From Lineus longissimus (Eukaryota; Nemertea; Pilidiophora; Heteronemertea; Lineidae), in assembly GCF_910592395.1 (NCBI RefSeq), contig NC_088325.1, positions 7,409,501-7,473,500 of the forward strand: a stretch of 64,000 nucleotides of DNA, read 5' to 3'. The position numbers were made by a program, and so were the translations under genes. Positions 39,531 through 49,320 of the stretch are shown here, piece by piece. How positions within the stretch are numbered: the stretch's first letter is position 1; each line of letters opens with the position of its first letter. Under the pieces are notes generated by a model. The model had not been told where the DNA came from. It worked only from the letters and a program-made list of their open reading frames with translations, and ran no database searches.

Positions 39531-40138
39531 TTTGTAATGGTCTCGGAGTCTGACCCATCCTCCTCCAAATAATCGATGACGATATCTTTGTGTGGTATGC
39601 CATCAGGTAGGCTTACTTGACCTACAGCTCTTGCTGGTCTAGTACTGTATAAGAAAACAAAAGAGACAGCATTATCGCACCGGTAGCCAGTGAATTCTAC
39701 TAAAACAAATTGTGTTTTTCTCAGGATCAAAATCAGCTGAGACATCCCCTGGACATAACGACGATAGATTACACTATGCAAGGAAGGTTCAACTGTACTG
39801 TACTACAGCAGCTGTACTACAGGGTCTTCCCTGGGATTTCAATGAACAACCATGTCGGATTTTCGCTTGGGTGCGCGCGCGGCAAAATTTTTAAAAAAAA
39901 AGAAGTTTTTTTTGCTTCAAATTAAGGCATTCTGACCCCTTTTTCTGTCTTCTGGGGCCCCAGGCATATTTTGCATTCTGATGGTGACATAACAGTCACT
40001 CAGAACGTACGTCCTTATCCACAATTTAAAAAAAAAATTAAATTAAAATTTTTTTTTTAAGGATGTCGGACCTAGTGGCGCCCTCTTTAATTGTGACAAG
40101 CCGACATGGTTAAAACAGCCAGGTAGCCTCTGCCCTAA

Positions 40139-40266
40139 AGGGACACCTCACTCATTTGGAAATTCTTAATACATTCAAATTAATTGATATCTGCAATATT
40201 AGGCGTCAGATTTTTTTTACATCAGCGAACAAAAATTCAAATTTTTTCAATGAGTTGAGTCTCCCT
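40139..40266. mobile_element. 128-bp Kolobok-type MITE (TTAA)
   Basis: The left end AGGGACACCTCACTCATT and right end (inverted) AGGGAGACTCAACTCATT are flanked by CTAA (40135-40138) and TTAA (40267-40270). One base of the left duplication appears mutated. Non-coding. Confidence 0.7.
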
Positions 40267-41574
40267 TTAACAGCATCAGCAAGTATTAAAAGTCTGCCTT
40301 ATTTTTCAAACGAGACTAATCATTTTTATTTGCCTCAGTAGAGAAGTAATAGGAGTAAGTGAAACAAACGCCGGCCCGTTACGGGTAAGTTCAGTGTAAA
40401 ACATTTCGGCGGGAAATCCTGACGACCACGTGCTACCACGCCCTGGTGACATCTTTCCATGTGACAAATCAAACTCTACTAGGCCAATTTTATCTGCATA
40501 GTTAATATCATATGTTCTAGGCAATGTAGGCCTAATTCAAGGAATACATGTTTGGAAGAGACCCGGGAGAAGCTGAGATTGATGCGCCGACGATTCAAAA
40601 ACATTACATCAATCAATGACGGGACGGGGTCATCTCAGTGCAACTCGACTCTGCTCAGTTGTAGTCCAGCTCACGTCACATATCAGATGGGCATGCAATA
40701 CAAGAGATAAATGAATGACTAATCAAGAAATACTTAGGGTAAATGCTACTACTGTTGCACACTAACCATGGCAAAAACGAAAGCTTTCGCTGCTGGGGCT
40801 TGCGCTGGCGATCGTCACCAGTGGCCATTGTGTTGACAGCCTCAGGGAGTGGATGAATTATGTTAATGAGTTATGTTACCTTTCAATTCCGTGCCGTGGC
40901 GCTGTAGTGCTGCGTGCTCCGTCTTGGGCGTTATCGACGATGGTCGGATTGAGCGGGAAGCGAGTGATGTGGGGTCTACAATCCAAAATCAAAAACGATC
41001 GCGCGCCACACCATTTTCAATAATTTGTTCGCAATCTACGGAATACGATCGCTATTGTTTGAATCACTCGCAGACTTGTAAAATGGGTGATTTGGGAGTT
41101 CAGTCGCATGTTGTCAAAACAATTCGCAAAAACTGTAAAAAATCAATTTGCAGGTGTGAGAGTACGGGGACATTTCTGGTCGCATTATGAAATTTCTTGT
41201 CGCATATGCGACCATTTAGGCGCGAACTTTGAGCGCTGGAGTAAACAAATGCCGCGGCTTAATTAGGATACAAAAACACAATGCCATGGGGTAATTACGT
41301 TGATTAATTACGCAAATATCACACCTGTCGGGCTTACTTGACTCTCCAAGCGCACGTTGGAAACCATTGTTTTTGCCTACTGTCCGCAATTGGGAGGGAA
41401 TTGGACCAAAAATTGGCCATCGCCCTGTCCGCAATTCGGAGTAGAGAGGTGTCCGCCGTACAGAGGTTTTTGTTATTGGAAATGACTTAGAAAAAAATCG
41501 GGACTGGCCGGACGTGTCCGTAATGTAGAGGTGTCCGCCTGGCAGAGGTGTCCGCTAAGGGAGGTTCTACTGTA

Positions 41575-42117
41575 GTTCCTACCTTTACCTTGATCAATAA
41601 TCATTAGCGCCTTATCAGTTATTGTTGGTCTCGTATTATAAAACTTGGCAATCAAAATTAAAATGTTTTCTCATCATGTTTTGCAGGAATAATCTGTCGC
41701 TGCATTTCAACGTTTTTGGTGACCACATCACAGACGACTGTGAGAGAGGAGCTGAGCTACACTCATACTCATAGAAATAAATGAACACCTATAACCTCCC
41801 ATCCAACTTCAGTGCTCACCCGCGTCAGTCAATTCTAGTATTTCATTCTTTTTCCCTGTTATTGATTAAATAAAGAAAACCGCATGTGGTAGTTGGTTTA
41901 CAAAAAAATAAAGCCTATCTTATTAGTTTTTCTCGCTAGCAATGCGGGCTAAGAAAATCATACCTAGGTCCTTGACTATTGGTTGTCCCTGATGTAAAGC
42001 TGATGGCAATTACTGCATGGTTGTCCTGTCTTAGGCTGGACCATGTTCACTGGACGTGTTTGCCACAACCAACCTACGCTTCAAAGGAATTGATGTAAAG
42101 GCCCAGACTGTTTATGG
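41575..42117. other. Upstream flank of the transposase gene
   Basis: A good acceptor (TCATGTTTTGCAG ending at 41687) is followed by an open stretch, so an untranslated or alternative 5' exon of the downstream transposase or of SDHC is possible. No terminal inverted repeat of a large element could be found here. Confidence 0.3.
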
Positions 42118-42331
42118 TTGTGACCATGCATCTACTGGGCTGGTTTGTCTCAACCTGCAGTTCAAACAAATGATTCAATTCAAAGGCCCAGACCACATTT
42201 ACTGCTTATCCGAAGGTTGTGACCATGCATCTACTGGGCTGGTTTGTCTCAACCTGCACTTCAAACAAATGATTCAATTCAAAGGCCCAGACCACCTTTA
42301 CTGCTTATCCGAAGGTTGTGACCATGCATCA
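42118..42331 (+). repeat. 99-bp tandem repeat (two copies plus start of a third)
   Basis: The word GACCATGCAT recurs at 42122, 42221 and 42320, a period of exactly 99 bp (33 codons). The copies differ at few positions. The repeat is in frame with the transposase exon, so it could add two 33-residue blocks to the N-terminus if translation starts at an in-frame ATG upstream (near 42170). I prefer the start at 42332. Confidence 0.85.
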
Positions 42332-45300
42332 ATGCCGCGAATTAAAGTTAAAGAGGGAAAGGGCCGACCGAAAAAGGCTTCAAGAGCCTGTAAGAGGATC
42401 TGGGTGTCAAAGGAAAACTATGACCGTTGGGTATTGATACGCAGTGAAGAAAATTTGAAGACGAATGATGAGGTTGCTCGCCACTTAATAGAAATTTACG
42501 GCGAGAGAAGACCTGGTCTCCCGTTACCGTTCTTGATCGATGGCGGCTGCCGGGATGAAGAAAAAATGTTGGTCGATTCTGCTGATGATGCAGCTCAAAC
42601 CTGGTAAGAATATGTAATAATTTAACCTCAGTACAATTTTTTCATCCTTGTCCCAAATCCACACACTTGATCCCTTTGTTCAATATCGCTGCCAGCATAT
42701 TCGCCGAGCCGGATCCTTTTCATGTGTCCGACAATAGATTTACAATGTACATGGTTCCCTTTGGCGAATGGTGCCGACTTCAGTAGGCTAAATATTGTCT
42801 GTAAGTAAATCTCCGACGAGATTTTAATCTGTGCAGCATGCAGGTCCTTTCTCAGTAGGCCTACAGGCCCACTGCACCACCACTGACTGGATCAATTTAT
42901 ATTGAATGTAGGCCCTGAAAAATGTACATGTCATGTAGATGTATCAACTATCATAGGCCTACCTTAGACCTGGAACTAGGGCCTATTATAACCTATTTTG
43001 TTTCGTCCATTTGCAGGAGCACAGACAATTCTTCTTGTGATGGTCACGGTCGCCTGCCTGAAACCAGTGGGATTGGCTTATTGTCCGATTCGGACAGTGA
43101 TACTGACCTTGACGATGCAGATTATGAACCTCCTATTGATGCTATTGCTATGGATGATACTATATTGGTGTGTTTCTAAACTACTTCTTTGTATACTACA
43201 TAGAGCATAGATAACTTTTCAGTTACGGGTACATTATGTTATGTCTAGTCTACAGTGTACTGCATAAAAACCCATCTCAAATGGACAACAGCCACCAATT
43301 ACAAGTCAATGTAATATTCCATTGCATTTTATTTTCATTGAAAGGTTGAAATGCCACCATAAAATTCATGCTTCCTTTTATATACTTCAGACAGATGATT
43401 CAGATGATGACCTTCCCTTCGGCGAAGACCATTTGGACGAGTTTGAGCCATCTGATGATGATGATCCAAGTTTAGAGCCAACCACAATGTCTGAGGAATC
43501 TCGCCCTGATATTTTAGACTCTAATGAATCTAGTTCCAGAAGGTATGTCATCTCAAGTTTGAAATAATCGTTGACGATCATTGGTGAATTTAGAGCTGGG
43601 GCCCATCTCCTCTTTATTTCAGAAAAATTTACTGTGCCAGCGCATGCATGACCATTGGCATGCTTGGATATTTTTCCTTATATTTTTTCAATCAGACCCA
43701 AATATTATGTATTTTCAGGTTACTTCCTGTGGGTTACCACAAACAATTTGAGCAGGGGCTGTGTGAAGAAATGACGAATATGGTTGATGAGGAATTCGTT
43801 GTGTGCTCAACTTCCAAGTTGAAAACACTTTTCAACGATAGATTCAGCGATTTGAAGGAGTGCTGCATTTGTGGGGACGTGTCAAAGACAACCCAAACAC
43901 CGATAGGAGGAACCATGATTTTTCATCGGCGATGTCAGAAGGGACATGTTGCGGCCAAGTTTAAGACCAGCTGGAAGGTCAGCAATGTCTACATTGCTAA
44001 CCTGCTAATGTGTTCTGCTGTCACCATGACTGGGAACAACTTTACGAAGGTAGCAATGTGGGCGAAGTTTGTGAAACTGGTGTTTCCTTCAATAACAACG
44101 TTCACTCGGCTGCAGGCGGCATATGTCAACCCAGTTGTTGAGCGTTTCTGGGGGACAACGCAGGAGATGATGCTCTCGGCGCTTCATGGAATCCCAGTGG
44201 ATATCTGTGGTGATGGCCGTTGTGATAGCCCAGGTGAGCAACTAACTATACTATTACTAATCACACATTTTTTGTTATGTCTTTCCAAGGTTTCAGTAAG
44301 CTCACACATGCCTACCATTGAGGGCAGATACTTTCACAGCACACAAAACCCATCCTTGCATAACCAGTGGTTTGCACTATACTACAATCTTGGTAATATA
44401 TTTTGTATAAGTGAGGTATTATTTCATATATACTTCGACATTTGAATTCTCTAACATTTTCTTCTCTCTTCCAGGTTTCTCAGCACACTACTGCCAGTAT
44501 GTGTTTCAAGAGGCACTTGCTGGCTACATTGTGCATCTAATGACTGTAGATAAGAGGCAGGTACAGGGGAAAAGTCTAACTATGGAGCGATATGGGGCAT
44601 TCCATGGTCTGGCGTTCTTGGTATCAAAAATAAAGATCGCAACGTTCACCACTGATGACAACCCCATGGTCAGAAGCTGTTTTGGTAAGGATGTTTTTCT
44701 CTTTTTTTTAAAATTTCCTTCCAAGAACAGAATCTCCATAGTGTTTACCCAATGCCACTATCTTGTGCACAGTAATCATGACTAAATTTTATGTTACTTT
44801 GCAATGGTGAAAAGATTACATGAGCTTTATGATCAATCCAGAGAGAAATCTATAAAAAGATTCAGTGCTTTGATTGGAAGTACTTATTTTATTTTATTTT
44901 CAGGTGACACAGAAAAGTCGAGAGAAAAGCTGAAGTCCAACTTCCCAGAACTCACAGCTGCAGCTATTGATGCCATTCAGGGCATCAGGCATTACCTCGA
45001 CACCTGGCACCGAACAAAGAAAATCGGGGCGGCATTATCCAAGGTATACAGATGTACATGTAATAGCACTTGGATTGATTCTTTTTTAACCAGGACAATT
45101 TCCATTGTGATGGCAGGCCTATATCACTGATGCCGTAATGTCCGAGCGTCATCAGGAAGGGTTGCAAGATGGCAACAGGTTGTTGGCTAATTTTTTAAGA
45201 CAGATCTCCATGGCGATGACAAAACGGGTCGTCTCGAACATTAATTGGTTGATAACAGGATAAAACCCTGTGAATTATAGAATTTTTCACTTCATTTTCA

Positions 45301-46631
45301 GGCTGGCAAAGGGAAATCAAAGGTGCTTGATTGGGTGAAGCCGGTTGTTAACCATTTTTGGCACTGTTGTCAGTCCTGTGAAGGCAATGTTGATACATTG
45401 AGGGTAAGCGTAAAATAATTAATATTCTTACCCAGCATCAGTATTCAATATAACATCTTATTTCTCAAACTAATATCAAACCAGTTGATTGCGAGAAGGC
45501 CTGGTTTTTCGTGAATAAAGTTTTAGTCCCCACACACACTGTATAAGTTGCAATGTTTCTTGTACATGCATTTACTTTTAGAGACTGCGAAATTTTAAAC
45601 ATACGTTCTATATGTTTTAGGAATCGTGGTTGGCCCTCCTGTACCATGTTCAAGGTATTCATGAGTGGGCAACTGGACAATGCAGTCATGGTCCCTCGGA
45701 TGAGGAAAATGAGGCTCTTCGTGATGGAGCGTCGGTGGATACCGTCAGAAGTGTGGTAACGGACAAAAAACTGATGAAGGAGCTCCATTACTACACTGGC
45801 TTCCATCACACAGGTCCACTTGAGAACTTCAATGGCCTCATCACGATGTATGCTTCCAAGAGGACTCACTTTGAGTAAGTTCATTGTAATTTTGTTCTCA
45901 CTTGAAGTGCTGTTTCAGAGACAGAGAATGTCGCTCTCATGACATAGCATTGGACACGTTAAATTATCTTGTAATACATGTAGGGTAGTTGTATACATAT
46001 CTAGATATACCATTCAATGACATAATGTTTTCTTTTAGATACAACACAATGTTGACCAGAACAAAACTTGCCGCCATTGATTACAATCACTACATTCACC
46101 GCAAGGTGAAGAAACACGATGATCGTCTTGTCGTAACCAAAGGTTATTCGAAGGGAGGTGCAAGATGGGTCTTACGTTACAAGAAAGAACCCAAGGATTA
46201 CGACTACCACAGGTAGGTTATTTGCTGGGCAGGGGCCATGGTTACCAGTGTAAAAGGTATACTATACTTATTCAAAAATATGCAATGCAGTGTACTAGTA
46301 TAGTAAATGCTAATGCATCCTCATCCAAGCATGATAATGAAATAGGTGTGTGTTTAGGACAATATTCTCGAGTCCAATTTGTACTTGCAGTCTGCCTAAC
46401 TTTTGTCATTACATTCTTGTGTTACTTGTAAATGTATATTTGAATTCTCTTCTTTACAGGTCCTCTGAGTATATGCTGCTTTTAGAAAGAAGAGATCACC
46501 CTAGTCGATTGAAAGCTCGTGTGGAACTGCCCCCGGATCATCCGAAGCACATTGCTCCAAATATTGCTCCTGTTCAAGGCATCACAACAGCTGATATTGT
46601 GGAGAAGAAGAAGTCAAGACTCGGAAATTAA
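42332..46631 (+). CDS. Kolobok-like DDE transposase, ten exons, intact
   Basis: Exons: 42332-42603, 43017-43167, 43391-43542, 43719-44233, 44475-44684, 44904-45043, 45302-45403, 45621-45874, 46039-46212, 46460-46631. All nine introns are GT-AG, phases agree, and the exons sum to 2,142 nt (713 residues plus stop). The N-terminus has an AT-hook-like GKGRPKKASR and 'NDEVARHLIEIY'; two acidic exons follow. A zinc-binding block (CCIC...HRRC-x2-GH) precedes the catalytic core. Catalytic candidates are Asp in GDGRCDSPGFS, Asp in TTDDNPMVRSCF, and Glu in TGPLENFNGLITMYASKR, giving a complete D-D-E triad; 'LDTWHRTK' lies between. DGRCDSPG-type proteins are, from memory, Kolobok-related transposases. 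No THAP domain is present, unlike the small element at 16.8 kb. It lies in the SDHC intron, tail to tail with the ballast-type gene 172 bp away. Domestication or a living autonomous element are both possible. Confidence 0.82.
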
Positions 46632-46803
46632 CAAAATAAAAATAATAGTTATATTTTTATTACTATACCATAGACTCTCCAAAGGTGACTAATTTGACTG
46701 ACTTGGTGAAACCATTTATTGCACGCTCTCATTTCCATTCCATGTGATTTGAAAACCTAGGGAAAGACTTTCACCTGAGGCTTTTCAAAAGGAAAGAATA
46801 GTT

Positions 46804-48056
46804 TTACATCAGCCTACGTCCGGGCAAAAATCCAGTGTAGCGGCCATCTGGGGAAGGGAAGTGCTGTCTGATCATTAGGACTACACATGAAGGAATAACA
46901 ACCCTAACTCCCTTACCCAAGTGACCATAACTGAAGAGGACATACTGCCGATACGAAGCATGTCTCATAGCTCTATTCTTCCTTTCCCCAGGCCCAGCCA
47001 GGATATCTTGCACATTTCTGTGTGCCACTATCAAGACATTCTGATTCAGGCAAATCTGTATAATGTTGTCATCCAGGCATTCATTTTTGGTTTTAAATAA
47101 AGTAATGAGGTTAGTATCACATATTACCTGGTGTATTGATAAATTTAGGGCAACTGCAGGGGCAGCTGAGGCACGTTTTGAAGTAGGGGCTGCTACTTTT
47201 CCCTTTGTCTTGCATCGGGTTGAATGTTGACTCTGTAACAATAAGAAAAATATTACTATTTAAATATATACAATATACAATGTGTAAATGCATATGTTTT
47301 TAGCCAGCTGTATGAAAATGAACAACAGCTAAATAAAAATAATTGATTTTTGAGTAAAAAGTTTGAGTTTGAATTTCCTCTGATATGCCAATCAAACTTG
47401 AAAAATTCTGGATGTGACGGACACCGGCAGAAAGCCAAAACAGGCCAGCACTGAGAATTGGAACCTCTCATGTTATTTTACACTGGAAGTTTGAGTTTCT
47501 CTATAAGGTCACCCTGGTTTATGCTTGAAAAATAGAGGCAATAACAATGAACAATGAGGACAAATAAACCAACCTGTCCCCGGTTCTTGCATCTGGTGTT
47601 CAGGCACTTGCAAATATCGTGACACTGCTTCTTCGCCTCCTTGCATGGACATGATTTCGTCGAGCACATGTTCCTGCACTTGCATACTGTTGAGGATCCA
47701 GCAGCAGCAGTAGAGGGACTAGGCCTGGGGATTCTTGAGGGGCGAGGTGTTGGCAGACGTTCGGCTCCGCTAGTCGGGGAAATTGGCAAACGCTGGGGAG
47801 TGCTCAATGCTAACGGCAATGGACCGACGGGCCTAATCGCGCCGGCTTCCACCTCGTGTGCTTCAGATGGTCCGGCTTGGGGCAATGACACCGGGCTGGC
47901 CGAATGTGGCTGTGAGCTAAAGCCCATGTCGAGCATCCATTTCTCCAGGTCATCAGCACCAGCACGGCTTTCGTCGGCTCCCGATAACTCTTCGGGCTCT
48001 GGTTCCGCAAGTATGACAGAAATCGATAAAAATTCCCTGCTCTCTTCAGCATCCAT
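46804..48056 (-). CDS. CXC cysteine cluster plus P2X7-ballast-like protein, two exons
   Basis: Exon 1 is 47574-48056 and exon 2 is 46804-47232 (minus strand). The donor CAG/GTTGGT and acceptor TTGTTACAG are in phase 0; the total is 912 nt, 303 residues. ATG 48056 (MDAEESREF) begins an acidic and Pro/Ser-rich region. Around residues 127-160 lies a CXC/tesmin-like zinc cluster (CKCRNMC-x4-SCPC-x5-QC-x3-CKC). The C-terminus has IIQICLNQNVLIVAHRN, ASYRQYVLFSYGHLGK, RVVIPSCVV and FPSPDGRYTGF, the pattern I know from the P2X7 receptor cytoplasmic ballast domain and its invertebrate stand-alone relatives. The usual first Cys-rich half of the ballast is weak or replaced by the CXC cluster. No membrane segments are present, so it is not a channel. 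A short in-frame intron within exon 2 (GTAATATG to ATACAG) cannot be excluded. Confidence 0.78.
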
Positions 48057-48220
48057 CTTCGTTTCAAGGTTTCTATTACTAAGTAAAGGTATACCCATAC
48101 ACGCATGACATAATTTGCCTCGTTTCACTACCATCATCGGGCCAATTTGATACCTACCTGTCAAATCGCCAGGATCACGTGGTCATTCATTCATGAGTTT
48201 CGTAGTAAAATTCCATAGTA

Positions 48221-48229
48221 GTGACGTCA
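48221..48229. promoter_or_regulatory. CRE-type TGACGTCAC upstream of the ballast-type gene
   Basis: TGACGTCAC lies about 165 bp upstream of the minus-strand ATG (48056), next to GCAATGATTG-type CCAAT-like sequence and a locally CpG-richer stretch. This suits a promoter; no TATA box is evident. Confidence 0.4.
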
Positions 48230-48569
48230 CGCAATGATTGACAGCGGAGCGCCATGTTTCATTCATCCTCGTTCTGATTATCATATGCGCGGGAATTGAA
48301 AGCGAGGCTGTACTATTGCGTCAGATAGGTCGTTTCTCGTGAACAGGTCACTTTAACCATAGTGAGCATTTAAAATGACACTAAAACTTCTGAGCGGATA
48401 TCAGGTTGCATATGTCTACTATAGGCCCATTTATGTTTGGCTGGCAATTCTCACGAAAAACTGCACTGGTCCATGGAGACTGCAATTTACATGCTGTGAT
48501 GTCACAAGATTGTATATTGCGTCATAATGACCACTCTTGAACATTGAGCGAAGTTCTTTGACCTCATTT
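48230..48569. other. Promoter-side flank; candidate TTAA element end at 48352
   Basis: TTAA at 48353-48356 adjoins, on the minus strand, AGTGACCTGTTCACGAG, which could be a Kolobok-type terminus of the two-gene unit. No matching left end was found between 36 and 42 kb, so this is unproved. Confidence 0.25.
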
Positions 48570-49320
48570 CCACATACTGAACTTCCAGCAGTATTGCCTC
48601 CGTTACCTCTGCCCACACCACTGAAGAAATATTTTTCTGTATATCGAACGCCTCACTATACGGTGCACCTTACCCAAATTTGATCTGATTTTGCCATATC
48701 CAATGTACACTATCTGTATACGGGATACACAGGGTGTTTCAAAAAAAACCAAACCGAGATTAATTTGTGGTAGATGGGTAGATTGTGGATGTTTGATTGA
48801 ACTGTTTCATGTTCAGTCATCTGTGACAGTAAATTGGATTTCTTGGTGTCAAAAGAAAGAGGACATCATTAGGTAATAAATGGTGGTTGCCAATTTTCCA
48901 AAATATTTAGTCGTGTCCAGGAAATAAACAAATTTATCTCAGTTTCCTTTTTATTGAAACACCCTGTAAAGCAGCATATGTTGAACCCATTCTTCGATCA
49001 CACAAACCTCACTTTCCATGCCCACTCCGACTCTAATATGAACAGGATTTTAAAATAACTTCACAGGGTTTGCCCTTTTAATCTTCTCTAGACACTGTGT
49101 TAGTTTCAACTCAAAGCATATTGTGGTTTTTGAATGAGACACAAAAATGCTACACTTGCCAAGATATCAGACCGCTGATCGAGCAATAGTGATGGTCAGT
49201 GGCATCAAGCTAACCTGTTACCATTGTGTGTACAGCGATGCGGTTTATGAGTTAGTAATAGCCAATCAACTTTGTTTGAAATGGATTGCATACAAATGCA
49301 TGCTCTACTTTTTGTCGAGG
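48570..49320 (-). repeat. Interspersed repeat, copy 2
   Basis: Inverted counterpart of 27625-28290. It keeps the empty site (49206-49225) for the 172-bp hAT-type MITE and carries its own MITE at 48730-48966. Confidence 0.85.
48730..48966. mobile_element. 237-bp MITE with CAGGGTGTTTC ends
   Basis: Roughly 38-bp termini are inverted copies: CAGGGTGTTTCAA, then A-rich sequence, then GAGAT(T/A)AATTTG. The paralogous repeat at about 28119-28135 shows the unoccupied site. The flanks fit a TA duplication in which the left copy has decayed to CA. Non-coding; a fragment is at 7494. Confidence 0.82.

Follow-up and report, generated by a model that had tools for sequence, protein, structure and literature searches.

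A Kolobok-like transposase gene and a P2X7 ballast-type gene as convergent neighbours in the genome of Lineus longissimus

Does a gene for the P2X7 ballast domain that lies tail to tail with a DDE transposase gene belong to the host or to a transposon? The question was raised by a 64,000-nucleotide stretch of the genome of the nemertean Lineus longissimus (contig NC_088325.1, positions 7,409,501 to 7,473,500 of the forward strand), here called the window. The original prediction had placed in it a plus-strand transposase gene and a minus-strand gene for the end of the ballast domain, and had proposed that this domain travels as an accessory gene of Kolobok-like transposons. Results showed that the pair recurs in the genome and that its family has both terminal repeats and TTAA flanks; the ballast domain therefore travels here as a Kolobok accessory gene. 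With a high degree of confidence, the pair is a young Kol0-type copy of a Kolobok DNA transposon, now immobile, with the plus-strand gene as its D-D-E transposase and the minus-strand gene as its KolX. The proposal was thus right, but it had already been published by Kojima and Bao 2022 (PMC9587614).

Recurrence of the pair and ends of the element

The accessory-gene half of the pair was repeated elsewhere in the genome at 95-96% identity, the three longest other matches being on C10, C11 and again C10, and the aligned blocks of the whole element were 92.6 to 97.2% identical. A search of the genome with the P2RX7_C family scored 150 places of 187 candidates, and 133 were over the Pfam cut-off; some of the scored places are pieces of one gene. 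Forty-two of the 150 ballast loci were examined, the 30 best-scoring ones plus 12 chosen by hand across the remaining 120, with a profile built from 42 transposases and a match threshold of domain E <= 0.01. Among the 30 best loci, taken with 1.5-kb flanks, a transposase match was found near 24, convergent at 23 and divergent at 1 (L021), while among the 12 lower-ranked loci, taken as 5-kb stretches, it was found near 8, all convergent. Pooled, a transposase match lay near 32 of the 42 ballast loci and was convergent at 31, the window itself among them. A pair that never recurred elsewhere in the genome, the outcome named in advance as fatal to the proposal, was not what was found. None of 16 control pieces (3.4 kb each, from the rest of the window) matched the profile.

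Loci without a profile match were L017, L019, L031, L032, L034 and L038 among the 30, and L057, L062, L065 and L067 among the 12. Two of these hold transposase pieces that the profile missed and that stand outside the 32, namely L017 (a match to exon 1) and L057 (the last exon, recognised by eye). At L067, an open frame at 1294-1668 resembles a THAP domain by eye; it lies near the ballast match, amid retrotransposon-like frames.

The original prediction had also called for a search for terminal repeats and TTAA at such pairs, and the family showed both, in two short copies and at the right ends of the four longer ones compared. The copies of the window, C10, C11 and the second C10 locus diverge just past the right end, and TTAA follows in 4/4. 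A search of the genome with the last 100 bp returned two short relatives, on C3 and C13. The short copies, L045 (715 bp) and L048 (707 bp), have both ends present and TTAA on either side. Their left repeat is the 17-bp AGTGACCTGTTCACGAG, and each retains the first part of transposase exon 1 and of the ballast gene; the left transposon end is carried by L045 (886-1029) and by L048. The left end is AG in 2/2 short copies, and the right end is CT in L045 and 4/4 longer copies, in agreement with the 5'-RR...YY-3' termini of Kolobok elements. In L048 the right end is CAAT, not CACT, and its last two letters break the YY-3' pattern.

By comparison with the short copies, the window copy is without the left 144 bp, including the left terminal repeat. 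This repeat was sought in the window and not found, and a BLAST search with the left end returned the inverted right end only. No TTAA-bounded inverted ends were found in L054, L055, L056, L009, L010 or L011 (14 bp, at most 2 mismatches, RR start) or in positions 40001-49000 of the window (12 bp, at most 2 mismatches). With its left terminal repeat gone, the window copy should not move as a unit. The transposase had been described as intact, which holds for its reading frame and not for the element, whose left end is missing.

Shorter relatives of the right end were also seen. A short TTAA-bounded element with inverted ends AGCGAACTGGAACCGCCGAGC (L010, 8419-8753) lies in the C11 copy at the place of the window intron 45044-45301, and its inner part is 87% similar to the Kolobok right end. 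Positions 46-100 of the right-end query (two matches from 38 and one from 48) matched at least 33 further places on many contigs at 83-88% identity, among 40 scored of 408 candidates, which suggests that short relatives form a large family in the genome.

Table 1. Positions of the two genes and of the transposon features in the window
Feature	Position	Strand	Remarks
Kolobok transposase gene	42332..46631	+	10 exons, 713 amino acids; GT-AG splices, open frame
Transposase exons 1-5	42332-42603, 43017-43167, 43391-43542, 43719-44233, 44475-44684	+	
Transposase exons 6-10	44904-45043, 45302-45403, 45621-45874, 46039-46212, 46460-46631	+	
KolX-like accessory gene, this copy	46804..48056	-	303 amino acids; two exons, GT-AG splices, open frame
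KolX-like exon 1	48056-47574	-	contains CXC-like cluster 47684-47589
KolX-like exon 2	47232-46804	-	C-terminal part of ballast domain
Internal deletion junction	47073..47077	.	from BLAST blocks and an alignment of the window copy with C10 and C11
Transposon right terminus	48253..48352	.	ends CACT; reverse strand begins AGTGACCTGTTCACGAG
TTAA target site, right end	48353..48356	.	in 4/4 longer copies and 2/2 short copies
Left breakpoint of window copy	42330..42332	.	transposon homology starts about 2 bp before ATG

The transposase and the ballast gene

The plus-strand gene stood as predicted, with ten exons and a D-D-E core. Spliced at canonical GT-AG sites, the window gave an open frame of 713 codons. 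In the aligned transposases, including that of the window, D357 was present in 42/42, D424 in 40/41 and E582 in 41/41, and these are read, from their pattern, as the putative catalytic D-D-E residues. D466xxH469, the C/DxxH motif between the second D and the E, is conserved in the 42-sequence alignment, and a putative zinc-finger C/H set before the last E (C506, H523, H528, C535 and H537) was present in 42/42 at each position.

A protein search of both products, as the original prediction had suggested, gave 42 proteins matching the transposase, among them the NCBI protein of the window itself and a second protein from Lineus longissimus, and gave P2RX7_C and PDB P2X7 matches for the minus gene. 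An NCBI Lineus longissimus protein equals the window transposase at 100% over the 456 residues searched. The NCBI model of the plus gene (P0002) is shorter, at 578 amino acids, with its start within the second exon; exon 1 is supported independently by the L017 match at 48% identity, and it is also seen in the two short copies. One of four transposase homologues scanned (P0022) passed the Pfam cut-off for "Mutator-like transposase". At L058 (3142-4677) and L059 (326-1861), transposases of the same type were seen beside a ballast match as a single uninterrupted 1.5-kb frame, in contrast to the ten-exon gene of the window.

The minus-strand gene is convergent with the transposase gene, and the two stops are 172 bp apart. 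It had been predicted as a two-exon gene joining a CXC zinc cluster to the end of the ballast domain. Its open frame, its canonical splices and the joining of the two parts in this copy all stood, while the two-exon form and the joining itself are, judging from the aligned copies, the product of a deletion. The gene matched the Pfam family P2RX7_C (PF20478) at E 1.6e-13 over profile positions 115-191 of 192 only, and PDB P2X7 chains at E about 2e-5. At the deletion junction, inside the apparent exon 2, the copies on C10 and C11 have about 870-890 bp more. With this segment the window copy lost the remaining part of an intron and a pair of small exons, as well as the beginning of the ballast exon, which encodes six of the seven zinc cysteines. 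The window ballast gene retains one of the seven, so it does not have the seven-cysteine set of the P2X7 ballast.

All seven zinc cysteines were present in the L009 exon, the open reading frame (ORF) of L054 and protein P0044. Against PDB P2X7, these fuller forms of KolX scored E 1.6e-14 (L054 ORF) and E 6.7e-12 (P0044), with the cysteines aligned, and in the fuller copies a cysteine cluster lies upstream of the seven-cysteine ballast. The C10 ballast gene has a stop within the cysteine cluster, and that of C11 has an interruption within the ballast exon. The NCBI protein P0045 includes both small exons and skips the cysteine cluster, while P0044 includes one small exon. P0044, a Lineus protein of the KolX type, carries the NCBI name "P2X purinoceptor 7-like"; since by sequence it appears to be a KolX relative, receptor counts drawn from such annotation could mislead.

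The cysteine cluster scored 10.6 bits (E 0.74) in the window protein and 14.9 bits (E 0.034) in the L056 fragment against PF03638 (Tesmin/TSO1-like CXC), whose cut-off is 23.5 bits, and the L054 fragment gave no PF03638 (TCR) match. All matching fragments were under the Pfam cut-off, and the cluster is therefore named "CXC-like". A CXC-like cluster likewise precedes the ballast in a second subfamily (L014, L015, L016 and L054), where ballast identity is about 51-52%. The 1.5-kb flanks of L025, L030 and L040, three loci with a transposase match of the L014 kind, did not show the pattern, and neither did 10 kb at L055, where ballast identity is about 39%.

The TTAA target-site duplication, the termini, the D-D-E residues with DxxH and the C/H set are features of the Kolobok superfamily, in which a D-D-E protein cuts and joins the element at TTAA. 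A second gene, KolX, with a ballast domain marks the Kol0 type, and here it is seen in the PF20478 matches and in their recurrence beside transposases. The transposase would recognise the 17-bp terminal repeats and insert the element at TTAA, and KolX would be its zinc-held helper. KolX would most likely bind DNA through its CXC-like cysteine cluster, and its ballast may serve as a zinc-held assembly or nucleotide-binding module, as in P2X7. The open transposase of the window copy could nonetheless still work on short copies in which both ends are present.

State of the copy and alternative explanations

Against the C11 copy, the window showed 3.0% substitution in exons and 2.1% in introns; of 562 codons, 34 had a non-synonymous and 13 a synonymous change. 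Against the C10 copy, the values were 2.5% and 2.0%, with 18 non-synonymous and 3 synonymous codons of 288, and one stop in C10. By these substitutions, selection appears to have left no sign since the window, C10 and C11 copies parted, and the best reading of the window copy is a young remnant, no longer mobile.

Several points weigh against the identification as a young, immobile Kol0-type copy. Without its left end, TTAA on both sides cannot be shown in the window copy, and no copy was found at full length that combined both ends with both genes, the C10, C11 and second C10 copies being interrupted. The window transposase had no Pfam match at E<=1. The 42 ballast loci are not independent, several being near-identical, so there are fewer independent cases than counted, and all 16 controls come from the window. 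The Kol0 assignment is drawn from KolX and the described features, not from a tree with named Kolobok families. Structure prediction for KolX was poor, with a mean predicted local distance difference test score (pLDDT) of 38 for P0044 and five relatives. Gap positions in exons and introns were 6 and 37 against C11, and 0 and 16 against C10; the rarer exon gaps may reflect earlier selection on the frame.

These gaps bear on the suggestion that the window pair has been domesticated, with the loss of the left end fixing the pair in place and the transposase becoming a host gene under a new promoter. It would agree with the open 713-codon frame, with the fewer gaps in exons than in introns, and with a breakpoint about 2 bp before the ATG, upstream of which the frame stays open through a 99-bp tandem repeat (42035-42607, 190 codons). 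Silent changes are not in excess, however, substitutions are no scarcer in exons than in introns, a frame may remain open at about 3% divergence simply because the copy is young, and the accompanying ballast gene is broken, which together make domestication very improbable. It was set aside on the substitution pattern, to which the gap pattern is mildly opposite. The tandem repeat (42116-42330) has about two copies, 98% alike, and abuts the transposase ATG.

It is likewise most unlikely that the CXC-plus-ballast-tail protein of the window is a functional shortened variant of KolX and not debris: the deletion left the joined frame open, but six of the seven zinc cysteines are lost, part of an intron is read as coding, and C10 and C11, the two copies aligned there, both keep the segment. 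Least credible of all is an ordinary host ballast gene beside a transposase by chance or old synteny, since, although Rump et al. 2020 (PMC7016195) linked ballast genes to two marker genes across invertebrates and read this as ancestral synteny, the pair here is found again and again across one genome, in convergent orientation almost every time, its high-identity copies share a common end and TTAA, and the genome has 150 scored ballast places (133 over the Pfam cut-off, some being pieces of one gene).

Comparison with known systems

The young, immobile Kolobok copy of the window gives, through the many pairs in its genome, a countable one-genome confirmation of a transposon-borne P2X7 ballast as proposed by Kojima and Bao 2022 (PMC9587614). 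According to the passages on KolX in that paper, KolX of the Kol0 Kolobok lineage resembles human P2X7 residues 476-595, the seven-cysteine ballast. Its authors conclude that P2X7 originated when a P2X4-like gene fused with KolX, and that domestication of a KolX is the likely origin of zebrafish Nanor. In open-licence literature on the P2X7 ballast with transposons, and on KolX or nanor with Kolobok, this paper alone was found; on Kolobok with P2X7 it came up together with PMC9319628, and no paper joining CXC domain, Kolobok and transposase was found there. The ballast domain was described across animals by Rump et al. 2020 (PMC7016195), where "transpos" is absent from the main text. The species examined in the corresponding part of that work have one or a few (<10) ballast genes each, in contrast to the far more numerous ballast places in Lineus longissimus, a species that is not mentioned in that part.

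Two points are possibly new: a CXC-like cluster on KolX, seen in two subfamilies whose ballasts are about 52% identical, and the nemertean host. The cluster separates the KolX found here from KolX as described in the passages of Kojima and Bao 2022, in whose main text "cxc" is absent. A tentative reading, which we hold as possible and would not favour, is that nemertean KolX is a two-module protein with a CXC-like DNA-binding cluster and a ballast, that the ballast began as the assembly part of a transposase helper reading DNA via the cluster, and that the P2X7 capture took the ballast without the cluster. The cysteine spacing is similar to that of the Tesmin/TSO1 CXC domain, with scores under the Pfam cut-off, so membership is not established.

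The ballast of vertebrate P2X7 (ZCD) is a homologous domain, and its zinc cysteines align in the fuller KolX copies. KolX differs from P2X7 in being without the channel part and in being transposon-encoded, and the window copy has one of the seven cysteines. From the same superfamily and the same host, Lineus longissimus, comes KolobokP (PMC9587614, Table 1), described there as having a His-Me nuclease and long direct repeats at its termini; the accessory gene of the element described here is a ballast gene.

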